DNA of 64,000 nucleotides. Source: a bacterium (GTDB lineage: Bacteria; Orphanbacterota; Orphanbacteria; Orphanbacterales; Orphanbacteraceae). The stretch lies in contig JALGYY010000035.1 in assembly GCA_025782575.1 (NCBI GenBank), forward strand, positions 208,670-272,669. Reading direction: 5' to 3'. A program made the position numbers and the translations under genes. Below the pieces are notes generated by a model that was given only the letters and a program-made list of their open reading frames with translations, was not told the origin of the DNA and made no database searches. Positions within the stretch are counted from its first letter, which is position 1, and the number at the start of each line of letters is the position of its first letter. This document shows, one piece after another, positions 10,140 to 57,647 of the stretch.

Positions 10140-11732
10140 ATGGATCGGAAGCTCGGTGCACCGCTCCTGTTTACAGCCATCCTGATTCTGGGCACCCTGC
10201 TTCGGATCGCCCAGCTCGGTCATCATGAGCTGGGTATCGATGAAGCCAATTCGGTCATTATTGCCGCCGGCACACTTCATGAGCTCTTCCAGAGGCTGAT
10301 CGACGACGCCAACGCCCCCATCTACTATCTGCTCCTTCATTTCTGGATGAAAGCGGGCGGCCAGGGAGAAGTCGCGGTTCGCGCACTCTCGCTCATCATG
10401 GGAATGGGGCTCGTCGCCCTTTTGTACGTCGCGGGCCGGAGACTCTTCAATGAGCGCGCTGCGATCGTCGCTTCCCTCTTCGCGGCCGTCGGCCCCATGA
10501 CGATCTACTATTCACAGACCGCAAGAATGTACATGTTGCTTCCGGTGCTCAGCCTGGCAGGTTTTCTCTCCCTCGTTTCCACGATCGAAACCAATCGCGC
10601 CCGATCATGGATCGCCTATGCTCTTCTTATGACGGCCACTCTTTACACCCATAATTACGGGCTCTTTCTTTTTCCGCTCGGATGGGTCGCAATCGCGTGG
10701 CGATCGAGTCGTTCGATGAATAAGAACCGTTCGTTCGATTTCAGATCAGCTGGACGCCTCGGCCGGTCTCTCGCCGCGGCGCAGGCGGGGGCACTCCTGC
10801 TGTACCTGCCCTGGTTCCTGGTTTTTCTTTCGCAGAATGAACTCGAACGATACAACTGGATTTCCCGTTACATGACAGGGATCCATCCCGCCTTCTACGT
10901 TCCCATGTCTCTGGAGGCATTCATTCCGGGAGGCGCACTCCCGGAGTATTTTGATTACCTCGGGTTCGGGACCAACGGATCTGTTCGGATCATTCTGGTA
11001 ATCGCGTGCGCCGTTCTCGCGCTGTCCGCGGCGCGACCTGGACAAAGACCGGGAAGAATGACGGACCGGGCGGGGCTCGCTATTCTCTATCTGCTCGTAC
11101 CACTTGCGGTCGCCTGGTCCGTTTCACTCTTCAAGCCTGTCTATCTGATCGGTCGCTACGACTTCATCGCCTTTCCCGGCTTCGCCCTGGTCATGGGGAT
11201 CGGAGCGTCCAATCTGGTAAGAGTCCCGGGCTTCGACAAAAGAATTCCAGCTCTGGTGTATTCGACCCTCATCCTGCTCTCCTCTCTAACGGTTCTCGTC
11301 CCCTATTACAATGGCGCGCCACGGAGAAAAGCCGAAATCCGCGCGGAGTATCTTTCGCGCTTTGCCGGCGAACGGGACATGGTCATTTTGACCGGTCTCC
11401 GAAGAGCGGCAATCGAATATTATTTGATACAAAAACACTCGTCCCTTCGTCTTTTCTCTTTTCCTCTGAGTACGGAGAGACACCTGGGGATCTTCGACGC
11501 TGAGACGCTGCTCCATCGACCGGAGGAACTCGAACGGGACGGGGCGGCTCTTCTTCAGACGGCAAGGGAAACTCTTCCCGGAGACGGAACGCTCTGGGTC
11601 GTCGACTATCCTGCCCCCGATGTTAATCGCCGCCTGTACCATCATCTTCAGGAGATGAAGCAGTTGATCGACCCCCTCGGTCGGGAAATGGGGATTCTCT
11701 CTTTTCAGTGGGAAGGGGGGGAGGCGAAATAG
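10140..11732 (+). CDS. GT-C glycosyltransferase, PMT/ArnT (family 39) type
   Basis: A 530-residue polytopic protein with about 11-12 membrane helices. The first extracytoplasmic loop has the acidic DEANS motif (residues ~34-38), the family's catalytic Asp/Glu position, followed by the PIYYLLLHFW segment typical of ArnT/PMT-like enzymes. Such enzymes move a sugar from a polyprenyl-phosphate donor to a lipid or protein on the outer face of the inner membrane. The C-terminal ~130 residues form a soluble domain with no recognised fold. It ends the kinase-regulator operon (29-base gap after the TPR lipoprotein), which suggests that its expression is controlled by that pair. The acceptor is unknown. 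Confidence 0.8.
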   Translation: MDRKLGAPLLFTAILILGTLLRIAQLGHHELGIDEANSVIIAAGTLHELFQRLIDDANAPIYYLLLHFWMKAGGQGEVAVRALSLIMGMGLVALLYVAGRRLFNERAAIVASLFAAVGPMTIYYSQTARMYMLLPVLSLAGFLSLVSTIETNRARSWIAYALLMTATLYTHNYGLFLFPLGWVAIAWRSSRSMNKNRSFDFRSAGRLGRSLAAAQAGALLLYLPWFLVFLSQNELERYNWISRYMTGIHPAFYVPMSLEAFIPGGALPEYFDYLGFGTNGSVRIILVIACAVLALSAARPGQRPGRMTDRAGLAILYLLVPLAVAWSVSLFKPVYLIGRYDFIAFPGFALVMGIGASNLVRVPGFDKRIPALVYSTLILLSSLTVLVPYYNGAPRRKAEIRAEYLSRFAGERDMVILTGLRRAAIEYYLIQKHSSLRLFSFPLSTERHLGIFDAETLLHRPEELERDGAALLQTARETLPGDGTLWVVDYPAPDVNRRLYHHLQEMKQLIDPLGREMGILSFQWEGGEAK

Positions 11733-11748
11733 GATGCAGGATTACCGG

Positions 11749-14511
11749 CTAAAACTCCCGGCCGATCTGGAAGAACCCCTTCATTCTTCCGATTCGACCT
11801 GATTCGTTCACTTTCTGGGGGAAGTCCAGCATCAATTGGAAAGGGCCGAAACCGGTCCGCAGCCCCGGCCCGTATGCCATCCGGGTTTTCGATCCTGAAC
11901 CGGCATCGGGGAACCATCCTGCATCGGCGAATAACGTGCCGCGGATCCCCCCGAGACTGATCGCGAAGGGCCATCCAAGCTTGACGAAGTCGAGCAGGGG
12001 AAAGCGCAATTCGAACGATTGGGCGAGATAGCTTCTCTCTTCCCACGAGCTCTCATAGAACCCGCGAATGACGAACCGGGGCGCTACTCGAAAAGCAGGA
12101 ACGTGGTCTCCCGCGAGCCAGCCGGCGAGGGAGCGGCCTGCCACCACAACGCGGTCCGCCGCCTCCCGATAGAACCGGAAGTCACCAAGAAGCCACATAC
12201 CCCACTCTTCAGTCATCAATGGTTCCACGGAGAGTCTGATTCGCTCTCCCTTCCGGGCGCCATAATAGGCCCATCTGACATTGTCCAGTACAGCGGCACC
12301 ATTCAAACCGATAAAGTTAACTGTCTCGGTCGACTCGTACTCATCCGCTTCACCAATTCGGATTCCCCATTCCAGACGACGGAAGCGATCGATCGGCCGG
12401 CGGATGCCGAGGCTCATACCGCGATAGAGAGCCGAGACGCTGCTCCTGCCGTAAATGTCCCTGCCCTCCCGACGAAACTGAAAGGCGGCGATCTCCCACT
12501 CGGTCATCCGGGAAAGATCTTCGTACGAAACATAAAGGTCCGAGCTTCCGAGAGAACCGTAGACTCCGAACATGAGATGAAGCCGGTGATTCCCAAGGAG
12601 ATCCGAGAAGGATATTGCCGAGCCGGAATAGAGGCCCCCTTCGGTTACCGCAGAGCCTCCGGCGCTGGCTTGATCAAGGGAGAGGCCCGGCTTGTACGGT
12701 CGAATGCGATAGGGGGGTACATATCCTCGTGGGTGGAGGACACGGGCCGCCGAGGGAGGGGGAGCCTGTGCGAGTCGATCGAGTTCCTCTGATTCCCGGT
12801 CGACCCCCCTCGGATCGTTCATACTGTGGATCGACCAGGTGCGATTCCGGAAATAAGAAAAATAGAGTTCGCTGCTTTCCCCGCTCCACGTGAGGGAAGG
12901 AGAATCGGGGACCAGGCCGCAGACCCCCCCCTCAAAGGAACTGACGCGCTCCGTCGATCCATAATCGATTTTCCTGAGGTAAATGTCCGGCGCGCCTGCG
13001 CGGTCCGATACGAATGCCACCCATTCGCCCCGGCCGTCCCATGCCGGCGAGTGGTTGTTTCCACCCTGATCGAGAGGGATAAACCAACTGTCACTTGCGA
13101 GGTCCAGGAAACCGAGACGGAGTAATCGGTCTCGCCCCGGCGCCGCGCCCTCAGTCACACGGTCTGTGGCGCACACGATCAATTGGCCGTCGGGAGACCA
13201 GTCGGGATGGATGTATACGAAACGGTCCTCTGTGATCGCGGATAGACTGCCGGACTCCATATCGAGAAGATAGAGATCGCTTCTGCCACCCCGAATCGCA
13301 CTCACGATCACCCGGTCTCCCCCCGGTCCCCATGAGACCCCCCGCACTTCTTCAATGCCGAGGGAAAATGTTCGAATCACGTCTCCCGATTCCATATCCA
13401 TCAGAATGAGTACTGTTTCGCTCCCTTTCTGCGCCGGTATCAGGAGGCGCCTTTCATCCGGCGACCATGCGGCGCGGCCATGAAACGGCCGGAGCGACTC
13501 GGCTCCCGAGACCGCGCCTCCTTCGATCAGCCGCCTGATTTCTCCTCCATTTCGATCACACCTGTAGAGAGAAAATGACCCGGCTCGATCACTCAGGTAG
13601 GCGAGAGTCTCGCCCGAAGGGGAGACGGCCGGGGCGACATGGAGCGCACCGCCACCCGCAACCTGCCGGGCGACTGTCTCCACTCGATCGAGGCCGGCCA
13701 GCTCCTCATAGTGCCCCTTCCGCATCGAGTCCCGCCACTCATCTGAAAGCTCCACGCCATCTTTTCCGAAGACGATGCGAATCGCTTCTTCCGCGTCAGC
13801 TGACCGGGCAAGCTCACGAAGGAAATCCCCCGGCGTTCTGTCGCCATAGACTTCCGCCAGATAGGCCCAGGCCGACTGCCCGAAACGATAGATCCTGACA
13901 TCCCTGTACCGGGCAAGGCTCGTGAATGAGGGAAGGGGCCCATCGAGCAAAGCGTCCCGAATCCAGAGCGTCGTAAACGCCCCTTCACCACCTAGGGAGA
14001 GATACTCCGCCATCCCTTCGATCATCCAGAGGGGGACACGGATCCGACCAAGCTCACGCATCGACCCACTCGGGGCCAGAATATCGATCTGAAAAGCATG
14101 GACGAGTTCATGCTGGAGTACATGGCGATACTCTTCGCGTGAGCCGGGATAGGGGAGGTAGACACGGCGCTTCAGAAATTCAGTGACCCCGCCCGTTCCT
14201 TCATTGATCCAGCCGGTACTGATGTTGGTCCGCTGAAATTCCGGGTGAGAGCTGTAGACGACAAGGGGGATGGGACGGGGGATGTCATGGTCGAGCCGGG
14301 CCGAGAGGTCGGTGTAGATCGCCTCGGCGAGAGAGACTGTTTCGAGGGCGAGTTCCCGCTCGGCGTCATAGAAATGAATGCGGAAGTGGGCTGTTTCGAT
14401 CACTTCCCATTGCAACGCTCGATCGTGGACTTTGTTCTTGCCGAAGTAGGCGGCCGGCGCAGCATCCGCGAAGAGGAGCAATATGACTGTGGTAATCAGA
14501 AATCGAAACAA
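11749..14511 (-). CDS. Envelope protein: peptidase MA-like domain, beta-propeller and outer-membrane barrel in one chain
   Basis: A 920-residue exported protein with three parts. After a signal peptide (residues 1-20), residues ~35-270 are a gluzincin, peptidase MA-like domain with HELVH as zinc motif and a downstream IEGMAEY segment giving the third ligand. Residues ~285-590 hold TolB/PD40-type propeller repeats (SPSGETLAYLSD, SPDERRL, SPDGQLIV and similar). The last ~300 residues are Tyr/Phe/Arg-alternating strands of a surface-antigen (BamA/Omp85-like) barrel ending in an aromatic residue (F920). The fusion would place a protease and propeller on a membrane-anchored barrel. It is convergent with the glycosyltransferase gene, with 16 bases between them, and has its own promoter. 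Confidence 0.82.
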   Translation of the reverse strand: MFRFLITTVILLLFADAAPAAYFGKNKVHDRALQWEVIETAHFRIHFYDAERELALETVSLAEAIYTDLSARLDHDIPRPIPLVVYSSHPEFQRTNISTGWINEGTGGVTEFLKRRVYLPYPGSREEYRHVLQHELVHAFQIDILAPSGSMRELGRIRVPLWMIEGMAEYLSLGGEGAFTTLWIRDALLDGPLPSFTSLARYRDVRIYRFGQSAWAYLAEVYGDRTPGDFLRELARSADAEEAIRIVFGKDGVELSDEWRDSMRKGHYEELAGLDRVETVARQVAGGGALHVAPAVSPSGETLAYLSDRAGSFSLYRCDRNGGEIRRLIEGGAVSGAESLRPFHGRAAWSPDERRLLIPAQKGSETVLILMDMESGDVIRTFSLGIEEVRGVSWGPGGDRVIVSAIRGGRSDLYLLDMESGSLSAITEDRFVYIHPDWSPDGQLIVCATDRVTEGAAPGRDRLLRLGFLDLASDSWFIPLDQGGNNHSPAWDGRGEWVAFVSDRAGAPDIYLRKIDYGSTERVSSFEGGVCGLVPDSPSLTWSGESSELYFSYFRNRTWSIHSMNDPRGVDRESEELDRLAQAPPPSAARVLHPRGYVPPYRIRPYKPGLSLDQASAGGSAVTEGGLYSGSAISFSDLLGNHRLHLMFGVYGSLGSSDLYVSYEDLSRMTEWEIAAFQFRREGRDIYGRSSVSALYRGMSLGIRRPIDRFRRLEWGIRIGEADEYESTETVNFIGLNGAAVLDNVRWAYYGARKGERIRLSVEPLMTEEWGMWLLGDFRFYREAADRVVVAGRSLAGWLAGDHVPAFRVAPRFVIRGFYESSWEERSYLAQSFELRFPLLDFVKLGWPFAISLGGIRGTLFADAGWFPDAGSGSKTRMAYGPGLRTGFGPFQLMLDFPQKVNESGRIGRMKGFFQIGREF

Positions 14512-15637: not shown

Positions 15638-15953
15638 CCCGGAGAAACGCCTGGCTTGGGAGGAGGGGGCGGCAGCAAAATGGAAGCGAGAGATGGAGGC
15701 AAGAAAAAGCCCCGCTGGAAGCGTATCACCCCACCTGGCCAACCAAGGAGGACTCCAGGAGAAAACCAGTATGCGAAGCGGAACAACGTCAGCAGGGCTA
15801 ACTCATTGTATTTCAGATTATAAGACGACTTTGCTCTCAAGTCAAGCGACCTGTGAAGATGGGGCGAAATTCACGCTCAAACGAGATTCCGGTGTAATAG
15901 TTCGACTCCGGCACTAGCCCGGAAACGATCTTCCGCGTATATTGCTGATTGGA
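15638..15953. other. Intergenic region of 316 bases
   Basis: Between the AAA+ regulator and the PHP-domain protein. It contains a possible 47-codon basic ORF (15680-15823, listed separately), a lower-GC stretch around 15800-15850, and a TATATT box at 15938-15943 just 10 bases before the next start codon with no convincing -35. I see no terminator with a T run, RNA gene or mobile element. Confidence 0.5.
15680..15823 (+). CDS. Possible 47-residue basic peptide
   Basis: ATG at 15680, preceded about 10 bases upstream by a very purine-rich GGGAGGAGGGGG site, opens a 47-codon frame ending in TAA at 15821-15823. The product is strongly basic (about 13 Lys/Arg against 3 acidic residues) with a KKKPRWKR stretch and several Pro and Asn. 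No family is recognised. It could be a nucleic-acid or ribosome-binding micropeptide, or a chance frame; the good ribosome site is the only positive evidence besides the charge. Confidence 0.3.
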   Translation: MEARDGGKKKPRWKRITPPGQPRRTPGENQYAKRNNVSRANSLYFRL

Positions 15954-17873
15954 ATGAAGGACTCCATCTCCATCTTTGCCGGACTCCGCCGGGTGGCGAT
16001 TCCGGTCCTGATCGTTGCCGCGGGGATCGCCCTCCTCCTCTTGATCCTGCCGAGGATCCGAACCAACTCCTCCTATTCACTCCCCCCGGGTCACGGAGAC
16101 GGTGGCGGCCGAGCGTCGATCGAGCCGGCCGATCCGGTTCGAGTCGCCACCAGGGGAACCTGGACCATTCGATTTATTACGGGCCCTGACAGCATCGCTA
16201 CGGGAGGGGGCCTGGTCGTTCAGTATCCTGTCTTCTGGAACTGGTCCAAACCGCAAACCACTGACCCGAGCTACCCGGGATACGTGGAGTGGGCGACATC
16301 AGTCGAAGATGTCGAGCTGACCGGATTCGCTTCTCATCTCGGCTGGGTTCGCATCGTCGTAGATGAGGGGATCCTCGTCCCGGGTGACACGGTCATCATC
16401 GTGTACGGAGGGGGAGCAGGCGGCGGCCAGGCAGTAGCCGATCCTTACGCCGAAAGGGGACAGGAGTTTTTGATCAAGGTCGACGGCGACGGCGATGACG
16501 TGTTTGCCGAAATAGATCGATCCCCCAAAATTGACCTGACCGCCGGGTCCACGGCTCAACTCCGACTCTTCGGCCGGGGAGAAGTGCGGGATGGTGAAAA
16601 AACAGAGCTGGTGGTCTCGGCTCTCGATCGCTTCGGCAATCGGGCTCCTGACTACCGGGGCACCGTTCGGTTCTCCTACCGATGGACCGTCTCCGGCCTG
16701 CCTGATCACTATACTTTCACAGAAGAAGACCGGGGGGCCCATGCGTTCCCGGTCACCTGGTTCAACGCCGGAACAGGCCGGATCCGTGTGGTGGAGGAAG
16801 GGGGGGTGCTCGAGGCATGGTCCAATCCGATTCGCGTCATCCCACGAAACCGGCCGGAACCGTATCGACTCCTCTGGGCGGATCTTCATCAGCATTCCAA
16901 TTTTTCCGACGGGACCGGGCTTCCCGAAGATCTCCACTCATATGCCAGGGATGTGGAGTATCTGGATGTATTTGCGCTCACTGACCATGATCATCATGGC
17001 CTTCGGCCGCTGAACGAAGAGATGTGGAACCGTCTTCAGGCCGTAACCGACAGCTTCTATCAGCCGGACACTTTCGTGACTCTCCATGCCTATGAATGGA
17101 CGAACTGGGTGTATGGCCACAGAAACGTCTACTACTTCGGCGACCTGCGTGAAGTCTTTTCCACCGCCGATTCCGCGACCAATTCTCCCGCTGAATTGTG
17201 GCGCGCTCTTCCTGACGGTCAGTCCCTTACCATCGCCCATCATACCGGCGGCGGCCCCGTTCCGATCGACTGGTCGATTCCTCCGGATCCGGCGTATGAA
17301 TGGCTTGTCGAAATCGCATCGGTTCACGGAAGCTCAGAGTGTAAGGGCTGTCCCAAAGAGATCTACAATCCCATAGAGGGGAGTTTCGTTCGCGACGCAC
17401 TCGCACTCGGCTACCGGCTCGGATTCATCGCTGCCGGCGACGGCCATATAGGCCACCCGGGGGAGACCTATGGAGCGTCCGGCGGGCTGGCGGGAATCTA
17501 TGCAGGATCGAGGACGCGGGAAGCGATCTGGGAAGCGCTGAGCGCCCGTCGTACTTACGCCACTTCCGGTGAGCGGATCATCCTCCGTGTCGATCTCAAT
17601 GGCCACTGGATGGGTTCTGTCATCCCTCTCGCCGAACTACCCGATCAACTGGCAATCGAAGTGAGCGCCTGGGGTACCGCCCCCATGGATCGGGCCGATC
17701 TCATCTCCGACGGGGTGGAAATCGCCACCGAATATGGGTCAGAAGAGGAGTTCTCCTGCCGTTTCCTGGTCCCCCGGCCGGAATCGGAGACTTACTACTA
17801 CGTCAGATTAACCCAGATGGATGGTGCACTCGCCTGGTCGAGCCCGATCTGGATCACTCCCTCTGCTCCCTGA
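15954..17873 (+). CDS. Membrane-anchored PHP-domain protein (DUF3604-like)
   Basis: A 639-residue protein with one N-terminal hydrophobic helix (residues ~12-33), then ~280 residues of beta-rich, Ig-like modules, then a PHP metal-dependent hydrolase-like domain from ~300. WADLHQHSNFSDG gives the HxH pair, ALTDHDHH the second metal motif, TIAHHTGGG a third and GDGHIGHPG a fourth, in the order seen in DUF3604 proteins. A small beta domain closes the chain. PHP proteins are phosphoesterases or related hydrolases; the substrate here is unknown and the location is outside the inner membrane. ATG 15954 is chosen over TTG 15942. It stands alone between intergenic gaps. Confidence 0.75.
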   Translation: MKDSISIFAGLRRVAIPVLIVAAGIALLLLILPRIRTNSSYSLPPGHGDGGGRASIEPADPVRVATRGTWTIRFITGPDSIATGGGLVVQYPVFWNWSKPQTTDPSYPGYVEWATSVEDVELTGFASHLGWVRIVVDEGILVPGDTVIIVYGGGAGGGQAVADPYAERGQEFLIKVDGDGDDVFAEIDRSPKIDLTAGSTAQLRLFGRGEVRDGEKTELVVSALDRFGNRAPDYRGTVRFSYRWTVSGLPDHYTFTEEDRGAHAFPVTWFNAGTGRIRVVEEGGVLEAWSNPIRVIPRNRPEPYRLLWADLHQHSNFSDGTGLPEDLHSYARDVEYLDVFALTDHDHHGLRPLNEEMWNRLQAVTDSFYQPDTFVTLHAYEWTNWVYGHRNVYYFGDLREVFSTADSATNSPAELWRALPDGQSLTIAHHTGGGPVPIDWSIPPDPAYEWLVEIASVHGSSECKGCPKEIYNPIEGSFVRDALALGYRLGFIAAGDGHIGHPGETYGASGGLAGIYAGSRTREAIWEALSARRTYATSGERIILRVDLNGHWMGSVIPLAELPDQLAIEVSAWGTAPMDRADLISDGVEIATEYGSEEEFSCRFLVPRPESETYYYVRLTQMDGALAWSSPIWITPSAP

Positions 17874-54683: not shown

Positions 54684-54733
54684 CCCGACAGTCGCGGCCC
54701 CATAGACGAGAGGATGCTAGAAAAGCGATCTTG

Positions 54734-57016
54734 ATGAATAGAGCCAATCGTAAACGGCCATTGCCCGTTCCGGGGGGGAGGCGCTTTCTTCCCCCCGTAT
54801 TGTTTGTTCTGCTTATCCTCTTCGCTACCAGTGCCTGGGGCGAGACAGTGCGGAAGATTCGCGTCGAAGGGAGCAGCCGAATCGCGGCCGCTTCCGTCGT
54901 CAAGACTCTCGGGATCGAACAGGGAGATATTCTCTCTGTTGACGCGATCGCGGAAGGGATCAAGAACCTCTACGGCACCAGGCAGTTCGACCGGATCGAT
55001 GTCGAGAAGGAAATCGTCCCCGGGACTGGTGAGATTGATCTCGTCGTCATAATCGTAGAGCGGGCCCTGCTGGGCACCTATGAGATTCTCGGAAACGACA
55101 AGATCAAGGACGATGACATCTTCGAAGAGACGCTCCTCAAGAAAGGCCTCGTCCTATCACGCCGGACACTCTTCCGAGAGTCGAGGCGAATTCACGCTCT
55201 CTACAAGGAAAAAGGCTACAGGAACGCCTCGATCTCCTGGGAACCTGCCGACGACGACAGCGTGGGACGCGCCAATGTCCGCTTTCGTGTCGAAGAGGGC
55301 AAGAAAGTAAAGGTCAAGCGTGTGGTCGTGCTCGGCGCCGGTCAGATTGATGAGGGCCGGGTCCGGAAGGAAATGAAGACCAAGCCGGACTCCTGGATTC
55401 GGAGCGGCGACTTCAAAGAAGAGACGTTCGAAGAGGACAAGGAAAAGATAGAGGCTTTCTACAAGAAGCGCGGGTTTCTGGATGCCCGCATCGAATCAAC
55501 GTCCGTTACCGCAGACGAGAACGGCAAAGACCTTACCGTAACGATCTGGGTCAAGGAAGGTCAGAAGTACTACGCCGGATCGTTCTCGTTCGACGGAAAC
55601 GAAGAGTTCAACGACGAAGTCCTGCAGTCGGCGATTCGTCTCAAGGATGGAGATGTTTTCAATCAGCAGAAATATGAAGAATCGGTAGGGAACCTCTACT
55701 CGATATATTCGGAACGTGGCTTCATTTTCTCCAACATTGTTCCCGAGAGAAGAGTGGTCGACAATCGAATCAACATCGCCTTCCACATAAACGAGGGGAA
55801 CCCCGCGAGAATCAATCGGGTCCAGGTGGCCGGCAATACGCGGACAAAAGAGAGGACGATCCGCCGGGAACTCGTGATCGCGCCGGGGGATTTGTTCAAA
55901 CGGTCCCGCATCATTCGATCCCAGCGGGAGCTTCTCCAGCTCGGCTTTTTCCAGGATATCCGTTTCGACTATTCGCCCGTCCAGGGGACCGACAAGATCG
56001 ATATCACGTTCGACGTCATCGAACGCCAGACCGGCGAGGCGAGTGCCGGCGCCGGTTTCAGTTCCATTAACGGCGCCACGGGATTCGTGAGGCTCGGCCA
56101 GTCCAACCTGTTCGGCGGAGGGGAGCGCCTGAATCTTACATGGGAATTCGGTGACTTCCAGCAGATCGAACTCTCCTACACGGAGCCATGGCTCTTCGAC
56201 ACACCCACAACCGCCGGCTTCGATATCGCCAAAATCCGCCGCAACTGGGATTCGTTTTTCGAGAAACGGCTGGGTGGCGGTGTTCGACTCGGACGGAGGC
56301 TCCCCTGGCTCGACTATTCACGCGCCGATTTTGCCTATCGCCTGGAAGAGAGGGAGATCGAGCCCCGATCGAACGCGAGCCAGGCGGTGATCGATGCCGC
56401 AGGCAAGTCGACTCTTTCGAGTACCAGGTTGACGTTCACACGAAACTCCACCGACAGATTGTTTCATCCCACAAGCGGATCAGTCGCGATACTCGTAGGA
56501 GAGTGGGCGGGAGGCCCCATCGGGGGGACCACCGAATATCAGCAGTATGAGGTCGAGAATCGCTGGTACTACCCGTCATTCTGGAAATTCTTCCTGGGAC
56601 TTCGCGCACGAATGGGTGTAGTTGACGGCCTCGAAAACGCTTCGACGGTGCCGCTCTATAAGCGTTACCGCCTGGGTGGAACGGGCATCTGGGGCCTGCG
56701 CGGATATGACGATCGGAGCATCGTTCCCGAGGGGAATTCATTCGATTTCGGCGGCCGGACCATGCTGGTCCTCTCGGCAGAATACAAGTTCCCCATCGCC
56801 GAAAACCAGATCTGGGGATTGTTCTTCTTCGACGCCGGGAACACCTGGAACAGCTTCCGCGACGTCAGACCGAATGACCTCAATCGGGGCGCCGGCCTCG
56901 GAATCCGGTTCCAGATCCCCATGCTCGGCCAACTCGGCTTTGATTTCGCCTACGGCCTCGACCGTGAGGAGGGAGCGGGCTGGCAACCTCACTTCCAGCT
57001 CGGATCACTCTTCTGA
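54734..57016 (+). CDS. bamA: Outer-membrane protein assembly factor BamA
   Basis: A 760-residue outer-membrane protein. The signal peptide (residues ~17-37, cut after SAWG) is followed by five POTRA repeats (~40-410: KIRVEGSSRI, YEILGNDKI, KRVVVLGAG, YAGSFSFDGNE, INRVQVAGNT) and the Omp85 barrel, with the RGYDDRSI loop motif (VRGF/Y-like) near residue 650 and a C-terminal F. It folds and inserts barrel proteins. ATG 54734 is used; a TTG at 54731 is directly in front. The ribosome site is weak. It starts the outer-membrane block and is 51 bases after clpC. ompH and lpx genes follow. Confidence 0.93.
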   Translation: MNRANRKRPLPVPGGRRFLPPVLFVLLILFATSAWGETVRKIRVEGSSRIAAASVVKTLGIEQGDILSVDAIAEGIKNLYGTRQFDRIDVEKEIVPGTGEIDLVVIIVERALLGTYEILGNDKIKDDDIFEETLLKKGLVLSRRTLFRESRRIHALYKEKGYRNASISWEPADDDSVGRANVRFRVEEGKKVKVKRVVVLGAGQIDEGRVRKEMKTKPDSWIRSGDFKEETFEEDKEKIEAFYKKRGFLDARIESTSVTADENGKDLTVTIWVKEGQKYYAGSFSFDGNEEFNDEVLQSAIRLKDGDVFNQQKYEESVGNLYSIYSERGFIFSNIVPERRVVDNRINIAFHINEGNPARINRVQVAGNTRTKERTIRRELVIAPGDLFKRSRIIRSQRELLQLGFFQDIRFDYSPVQGTDKIDITFDVIERQTGEASAGAGFSSINGATGFVRLGQSNLFGGGERLNLTWEFGDFQQIELSYTEPWLFDTPTTAGFDIAKIRRNWDSFFEKRLGGGVRLGRRLPWLDYSRADFAYRLEEREIEPRSNASQAVIDAAGKSTLSSTRLTFTRNSTDRLFHPTSGSVAILVGEWAGGPIGGTTEYQQYEVENRWYYPSFWKFFLGLRARMGVVDGLENASTVPLYKRYRLGGTGIWGLRGYDDRSIVPEGNSFDFGGRTMLVLSAEYKFPIAENQIWGLFFFDAGNTWNSFRDVRPNDLNRGAGLGIRFQIPMLGQLGFDFAYGLDREEGAGWQPHFQLGSLF

Positions 57017-57119: not shown

Positions 57120-57647
57120 ATGATACGAAAAATAGCGGGAGTCGCAGTATTCGCTCTTCTGACATGGACAGCGGCGGCAACGGCCGCGGACATCAAGATC
57201 GGATTCATCGATTCGGCCCGGATCCTCGCCGGATATCAGGGCCGGGAGGACGCCGAGCGGGAGCTGAGCGTGGAGTACAAGAACTGGGAGACTCAGGCGG
57301 AGGCGCTCAAGATCGGCCTCGACTCCCTGGATAAGGAGCTCCAGCGACAGATCGTGGTTCTCTCCGACACGAAGAAAAGGGAGCGCCAGCAGGAAATCCT
57401 TCAAAAAAAGCAGGAATACGAGACCTTCGTCCAGTCGGTCTTCGGTCCGCAGGGGAAACTGGTGGAGAGGGAGGCGGAGTTCTTTCAGGTGGTCGCCGAA
57501 AAGATCAACGTGATACTCAACCGAATCGCCGAAGAAGATAGCTACGACTTCGTTTTTGACAGTTCAGTCAATGCCATCGTCTATGCCCCGGCCGCCGATG
57601 ATCTCACCGATCGGATTCTGGAGGAGCTGAACCAAGGCACTCAGTAG
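57120..57647 (+). CDS. ompH: OmpH/Skp-family periplasmic chaperone
   Basis: A 175-residue periplasmic protein. Signal peptide (residues ~1-22), then IGFIDSARILAGYQG, the usual OmpH opening, then a long charged coiled-coil arm (~45-120, Glu/Lys/Gln heptads) and a short beta end. Skp-like trimers grip unfolded outer-membrane proteins before BamA. RBS TAGGAG at 57108-57113. It lies between bamA and lpxD, the classic order. A weak TTGATT-N17-CAGAAT pair (57055-57083) may be a local promoter. Confidence 0.85.
   Translation: MIRKIAGVAVFALLTWTAAATAADIKIGFIDSARILAGYQGREDAERELSVEYKNWETQAEALKIGLDSLDKELQRQIVVLSDTKKRERQQEILQKKQEYETFVQSVFGPQGKLVEREAEFFQVVAEKINVILNRIAEEDSYDFVFDSSVNAIVYAPAADDLTDRILEELNQGTQ

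Follow-up and report, generated by a model that had tools for sequence, protein, structure and literature searches.

The window, by which the whole 64,000-nucleotide stretch of DNA analysed here is meant, contains on its reverse strand a gene (positions 11749 to 14511, with the stop codon at 11749–11751) that encodes a protein of 920 amino acids from a predicted TTG start. The reading frame is uninterrupted, 924 codons being open, and this TTG is the sole listed start codon preceding a putative signal peptide; the start assignment is provisional. Full-length relatives match the whole span of the protein at 54–58% identity, and the base composition at third codon positions was 0.65 in this gene, compared with 0.64–0.66 in four adjacent genes. 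On one side the gene is neighboured by a gene for a TPR protein and on the other by a divergently transcribed gene for a sigma-54 activator, which is adjoined by a gene for a CehA/McbA-type metallohydrolase (15942–17873). This gene order is kept in two relatives within the phylum of the window, L038 and L039. A gene for a PMT-type glycosyltransferase (10140–11732), located between the TPR gene and the gene described here, is absent from this place in both relatives and therefore looks like a local insertion. Further along the window, the ordinary BamA of the genome is encoded at 54731–57016, with four POTRA matches, and is followed by a gene for an OmpH/Skp-like chaperone (57120–57647). The same genome contains TamB elsewhere, three M48-type matches, and two further copies of the gene described here, whose open frames span 1075 and 1206 amino acids, giving three copies in total.

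According to a preliminary description of the sequence, an HELVH motif, TolB-like repeats, an outer-membrane barrel and a terminal phenylalanine follow one another in a single polypeptide, and this order was borne out by the reading frame, the alignment, the profiles and the predicted structure, with HELVH at residues 134–138, TolB/PD40 repeats at approximately 284–566, the barrel at approximately 611–917 and Phe920 as the last residue. The putative signal peptide (residues 1–21, MFRFLITTVILLLFADAAPAA; 14449–14511, reverse strand, as for all features of this protein given below) was recognised by eye as a hydrophobic stretch followed by small residues. Directly after it, the alignment of 38 family members revealed a YFGKNK box (residues 22–27; 14431–14448), in which F23 and G24 are invariant in all 38 rows and N26 and K27 are conserved in at least 90%. 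The terminal Phe920 (11752–11754) was read from the translation, and F or W is also the last residue of most full-length relatives. The AlphaFold model of the whole protein had a pLDDT of 85 and a pTM of 0.87, the latter suggesting a defined arrangement of the three parts. The presence of peptidase, propeller and barrel in one chain is well supported by sequence and structure prediction. A fusion created by a frameshift or by misassembly was excluded because the same full-length chain is found in independent genomes and phyla, and a phage origin was dropped because there was no PHROGs match.

Residues 22–283 (13663–14448) are predicted by AlphaFold2 modelling and by fold and profile comparison to form a gluzincin-type zinc peptidase domain. 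Propellers and barrels crowded the fold matches obtained with the complete model, so a separate model of the domain was made (pLDDT 87.8). The best fold match of this model was the Grimontia collagenase 8jt1_A (Z 18.0, rmsd 3.1 over 227 residues), and all 50 of the matches listed were gluzincin-type zinc peptidases, which we assign to families M9, M30 and M1. The peptidase profile also matched the Grimontia/Vibrio collagenase 7wss_A (1.5e-5), and in the profile alignment HExxH, W..EG and the Y of YR.G coincide with the collagenase residues. The preliminary description had likened the HELVH site to those of gluzincins, and in the predicted structure the motif indeed lies on a helix of this gluzincin-type domain.

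The predicted zinc site HELVH (14098–14112) is present in 133 of 143 Bacteroidota copies. Downstream of it, WMIEG (residues 162–166; 14014–14028) is aligned with the collagenase W..EG and includes E165, the probable third zinc ligand, and Y208 (13888–13890) is aligned with the tyrosine of the collagenase YRWG and is probably the transition-state tyrosine. In the 38-member alignment H134, E135, H138, E165 and Y208 are all invariant, as are W162 and G166. By their roles in M1 and M9 enzymes, we take H134 and H138 to be the zinc histidines, E135 the catalytic glutamate, E165 the third ligand and Y208 the tyrosine. A chance HExxH match was excluded, the motif and its partner residues being invariant across phyla. 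The combination of HExxH, a downstream glutamate ligand and a clan MA fold, as read from the sequence and the model, places the domain among the predicted gluzincins. Fold and active-site order are common to the domain and the M9 collagenases, yet it is not filed here as a collagenase. When this sequence alone was compared with Pfam, the BSP peptidase family (PF04450; 5.9e-5, 23.4 bits) and Peptidase_MA_2 (4.8e-4, 20.4 bits) scored under their cut-offs of 23.8 and 32.4 bits, respectively; each of the two families was matched by 29 of the 38 members at E ≤ 0.01, and PF13485 was matched by other family members down to 2.1e-13. The Pfam scan of this protein gave no match to PF01435 (M48). Conservation is highest in the peptidase, with a mean majority-residue share of 0.55, followed by the propeller (0.51) and the barrel (0.47).

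The peptidase is followed by a six-bladed TolB-like beta-propeller (residues 284–566; 12814–13662), identified by PD40, by TIGR02800 and by fold comparison. The Pfam match to PD40 was 1.4e-13. The propeller model was similar to Escherichia coli TolB 1crz (Z 27.4, rmsd 2.2 over 243 residues), and Pizza6 proteins, which are six-bladed by design, matched it with Z up to 24.6. The NCBIfam TolB model TIGR02800 matched at 9e-30, with 103.9 bits, which is under its equivalog cut-off of 343.15; the propeller thus has the predicted six-bladed fold of TolB and does not score as TolB of the Tol-Pal system itself. Between propeller and barrel, residues 567–610 comprise a low-confidence linker (residues 573–605; 12697–12795), most of which has low pLDDT, and otherwise no more than a short helix and a single short strand, leaving no room for a POTRA domain. 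The region corresponding to residues 566–606 varies from 34 to 144 residues in 38 relatives, and neither a POTRA nor any other fourth domain was found in the linker by Pfam, by the model or by this length comparison. The protein therefore falls outside the POTRA-bearing Omp85 proteins such as BamA, TamA and PlpD.

For the C-terminal part, which the preliminary description had called a barrel, the strand list of the model, the fold comparison and the profile agree in predicting a 16-stranded Omp85-type outer-membrane barrel (residues 611–917; 11761–12681). The barrel model was similar to TamA 8us3 (Z 24.1, rmsd 3.3 over 285 residues), to the Deinococcus radiodurans BamA 8xnb (Z 23.5) and to the yeast Sam50 7btw (Z 21.8), and the barrel profile matched BamA sequences (1.7e-12) as well as the genome's own BamA in the window (3.3e-11). 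Pfam Omp85 was matched by this sequence alone at 0.011, with 15.7 bits, which is under the cut-off of 24, a limit set for detection and not a feature of the structure; two near relatives reached the cut-off, and 13 of the 38 members matched at E ≤ 0.01. Alignment and model located an RGF tip motif (residues 816–818; 12058–12066) in loop 6, between strands 11 and 12, and FADAG (residues 861–865; 11917–11931), of which D863 is invariant in all 38 members, in strand 13. We take these to be the RG(F/Y) and FxDxG signature positions of Omp85 proteins. With both motifs and a predicted 16-stranded barrel of BamA fold, the protein is assigned to the Omp85 superfamily on the strength of sequence and model. 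Five relatives (L016, L017, L018, L020 and L109) carry extra residues immediately before the RG motif in the aligned loop-6 region.

A profile search of 148 Bacteroidota genomes, sampled as the phylum of a Mucilaginibacter genome, found a family match at E 1e-60 or better in at least 98, a lower bound because at most five candidates were scored per genome; with this cut-off and scoring, more diverged copies of the pseudo-peptidase type described below may be missed. Up to three copies occurred per Bacteroidota genome. The alignments of 143 of the 144 listed rows begin at or before model position 27, indicating that the peptidase part is a regular feature of the family. By record titles, the family is also found in Eisenbacteria, Gemmatimonadota (Gemmatimonadetes), Zixibacteria and Acidobacteriota. 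On plasmid pSR116 of Salinibacter ruber (L158:3935–5836), a 633-residue form with peptidase and propeller ends after the propeller, which suggests that the soluble parts can exist without the barrel. NCBI names this form 'basic secretory protein-like protein' (PF04450-type). The possibility that its barrel is encoded by the next gene was excluded, since the next open reading frame had no barrel-profile match.

A census of the active-site residues was carried out on 143 of the 144 rows of the profile search, G102:C39 being left out as it has no N-terminal part; the first 40 census rows were hand-picked and included the ten lowest-scoring rows. All five residues (H134, E135, H138, E165 and Y208) are kept in 133 copies. 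None of the remaining ten (L118–L127, with wider stretches L262–L271) has H134, E135, H138 or Y208, and there are no intermediate cases; a glutamate at position 165 is kept in four of the ten. These ten copies still score between 1e-34 and 3e-42 against the peptidase profile, though without HExxH, and keep P160, W162, G166, G211 and G24 throughout, along with F23 of the YFGKNK box in nine. A C-terminal barrel-profile match was found in eight of them; L122 and L123 had none, yet their ends carry the same terminal motif. In a tree of 83 rows the ten fall on one side of a single branch with an SH-aLRT of 100; the tree was built with a quick method and midpoint-rooted for drawing, from 83 of 84 rows, one having too short a peptidase match, and L083 had been left out beforehand. 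Nine of the ten genomes yielded no active copy of full length at a threshold of 1e-20, every candidate having been scored. One clade of Bacteroidota has thus dropped the catalytic residues and retained the fold, the direction of the change, a loss, being inferred from how widely the active form is distributed. The all-or-none pattern suggests that selection maintains catalysis in the active branch and that there is a second use for the fold.

The surroundings of the pseudo-peptidase genes were also compared. In nine of the ten loci a gene of one shared family lies divergently adjacent or one gene off, and the two of these that were scanned encode metallo-beta-lactamase-fold hydrolases. Four loci (L262, L263, L265 and L269) have nearby a large gene of another common family, and the L263 copy, the one scanned, encodes the type IX sortase PorU.

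Among 80 fetched loci of the family, 60 have a gene for PBP1A, with transglycosylase and transpeptidase domains, directly upstream on the same strand; where the organism was named, these loci were mostly from Sphingobacteriaceae, so that the link may represent one shared ancestral arrangement. MlaD is encoded downstream on the opposite strand in six of the 80 loci, and TamB lies 4 bases upstream in one. At L095:1–7976 TamB directly precedes the family member and is itself preceded by a BamA-like fragment. The 80 loci were found with patterns that included WMIEGMAE, and the presence of HExxH in all 80 is consequently biased towards active copies.

Tentatively, and at somewhat under an even chance, we favour a function in outer-membrane assembly or quality control, as a protease that is anchored by the barrel and faces the periplasm, a proposal that draws on the neighbouring genes (PBP1A, TamB and MlaD) and on analogy. 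The signal peptide would direct export of the protein, a step that the sequence supports, and the predicted three-part fold would bring intact predicted zinc and catalytic residues together with an Omp85-type barrel. If the topology follows that of Omp85 proteins and of PlpD, both barrel ends would point towards the periplasm and the peptidase and propeller would be located beneath the outer membrane. Envelope clients in an unfolded or loosely folded state might then be kept near the barrel by the propeller, which is a guess, as is the 'substrate platform' role that the preliminary description gave to the propeller. The peptidase may cut stalled clients or trim a pro-part, the kind of client being likewise guessed. 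Such a protein would functionally resemble BamA, BamB and the assembly protease BepA joined in one chain.

The occurrence of all five residues in 133 of the 143 copies, with the other ten lacking H134, E135, H138 and Y208, points to catalysis under selection, and the envelope neighbours in the fetched loci favour a role in assembly or quality control. Against this reading, the neighbours within the window (the sigma-54 regulator, the TPR protein and the glycosyltransferase) say nothing of outer-membrane protein assembly; the genome, having BamA, TamB and three M48-type matches, offers no vacancy for the protein to fill; and the collagenases and aminopeptidases to which the peptidase fold is related fit nutrient or matrix digestion equally well. 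The barrel-less form of Salinibacter is a further point against it. No experiment on any family member was found in the literature searched. A doubtful but more specific version of the assembly role is triage within one chain, in which propeller and peptidase fold would receive clients under an Omp85 gate and the active form would destroy or trim failures, while the sister clade, having lost the zinc-ligand histidines, the HExxH glutamate and the tyrosine together, would serve as a pure binding or assembly subunit. In that case the clade would have given up catalysis and kept only binding or assembly, and the two forms would make a natural protease/pseudoprotease pair on an Omp85 barrel.

Digestion of nutrients or matrix, with the barrel as a mere anchor and the collagenase-like domain degrading peptides in the periplasm or, if exported, in the surroundings, is rather unlikely. 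The M9 collagenases are the best fold matches (Z 18.0), the barrel-less form of Salinibacter exists, and Bacteroidota genomes contain as many as three copies, the genome of the window likewise three, all of which would suit such a protease; however, the barrel keeps the loop-6 and strand-13 motifs of Omp85 proteins, beyond what an anchor needs, many loci have envelope-building neighbours, and one clade keeps the protein without its catalytic residues. The similarity of the propeller to TolB, its closest relative in both sequence and fold, and the adjoining gene for PBP1A, a wall synthase, in 60 of 80 loci could instead indicate a factor linked to Tol-Pal, whose propeller binds Pal or a TolB partner, whose barrel is tied to wall remodelling at division and whose peptidase trims a wall-linked protein. 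We regard this as improbable, because the TolB score of 103.9 is far under the equivalog cut-off of 343 and PD40 propellers of this appearance are common and bind many things.

The order of passenger and barrel is that of type Vd secretion, as first proposed for PlpD, and the survey of 2014 (PMC4104836), in the part available, raised surface delivery for enzyme-bearing Omp85 groups. A self-exporting protease, the Omp85 barrel of which moves its own N-terminal passenger to the surface, is nevertheless quite improbable, as the domain of PlpD itself was later placed in the periplasm in the accessible portion of PMC11116518, and the propeller directly before the barrel would need to pass folded or to unfold.

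The bacterial outer membrane is assembled by Omp85 proteins, among which several branches that bear enzymes have, to our knowledge, no known function. The interest of the protein described here lies in the joined protease, in the breadth of the family and in the clade without an active site. Being common in Bacteroidota (at least 98 of 148 genomes), it is no peculiarity of a single organism. Should the peptidase face the periplasm, the cell would possess a protease stationed permanently at an Omp85 barrel, which would provide a direct handle on the removal of failed outer-membrane proteins in poorly studied phyla, and the clade without catalytic residues would be a natural control to separate binding from cutting.

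With regard to known systems, the preliminary description of a protease tethered to a barrel, with a propeller in between, is a fair one by the predicted structures. No peptidase-propeller-Omp85 protein was described in the titles and abstract openings of the literature searched, which lay mostly outside subscription journals, and the preliminary statement that the architecture has no known biochemical role was right within that literature. The architecture itself is not new: the POTRA-less WD40-Omp85 subfamily was named by Heinz and Lithgow in 2014 and likened to a BamA-BamB fusion, and its members, as in the protein described here, have a propeller most like TolB before an Omp85 barrel and no POTRA domain (PMC4104836, available sections). 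On its WD40/PD40 propeller, Omp85 barrel and absence of POTRA, the protein is placed in that subfamily by architecture, and chains with all three parts are common in Bacteroidota. The available sections of PMC4104836 mention no peptidase domain in the WD40-Omp85 subfamily, and the 'Metallo' group described there is defined by PF00149, a different domain from the peptidase here. In the excerpt available of a 2024 paper the WD40-like branch is still among the Omp85 branches that are not well characterised, and the available text of a 2025 paper on the BAM complex of Bacteroidota (PMC12611786) does not mention 'propeller', 'peptidase' or 'TolB'. What is new here is the Bacteroidota clade without catalytic residues in the census of 143 copies.

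The barrel has in common with those of BamA and TamA the 16 strands, the RG(F/Y) of loop 6 and the D.G of strand 13 (Z 22–24), whereas BamA and TamA carry POTRA domains in place of propeller and peptidase. PlpD also has an enzyme before an Omp85 barrel, but this enzyme is a phospholipase, which is accompanied by one POTRA domain and no propeller and stays in the periplasm (PMC11116518, accessible portion). The catalytic domains of M9 collagenases and M1 aminopeptidases have the same fold, with HExxH, the downstream glutamate and the tyrosine in the same order; identity to the best match was only 16% over the aligned residues, and the domain here is joined to a propeller and a barrel. The Salinibacter relative named 'basic secretory protein-like protein' is linked to the present protein through PF04450, which here scored just under its cut-off, but it ends after the propeller and has no barrel. 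The M48 peptidase BepA has TPR repeats where the present protein has a propeller. BepA is a periplasmic zinc peptidase that acts on assembling outer-membrane barrels at BAM (PMC8423444, as far as available) and so gives a precedent for the role proposed here, and the likeness to it is one of functional analogy only, BepA belonging to a different peptidase family and having no barrel of its own.
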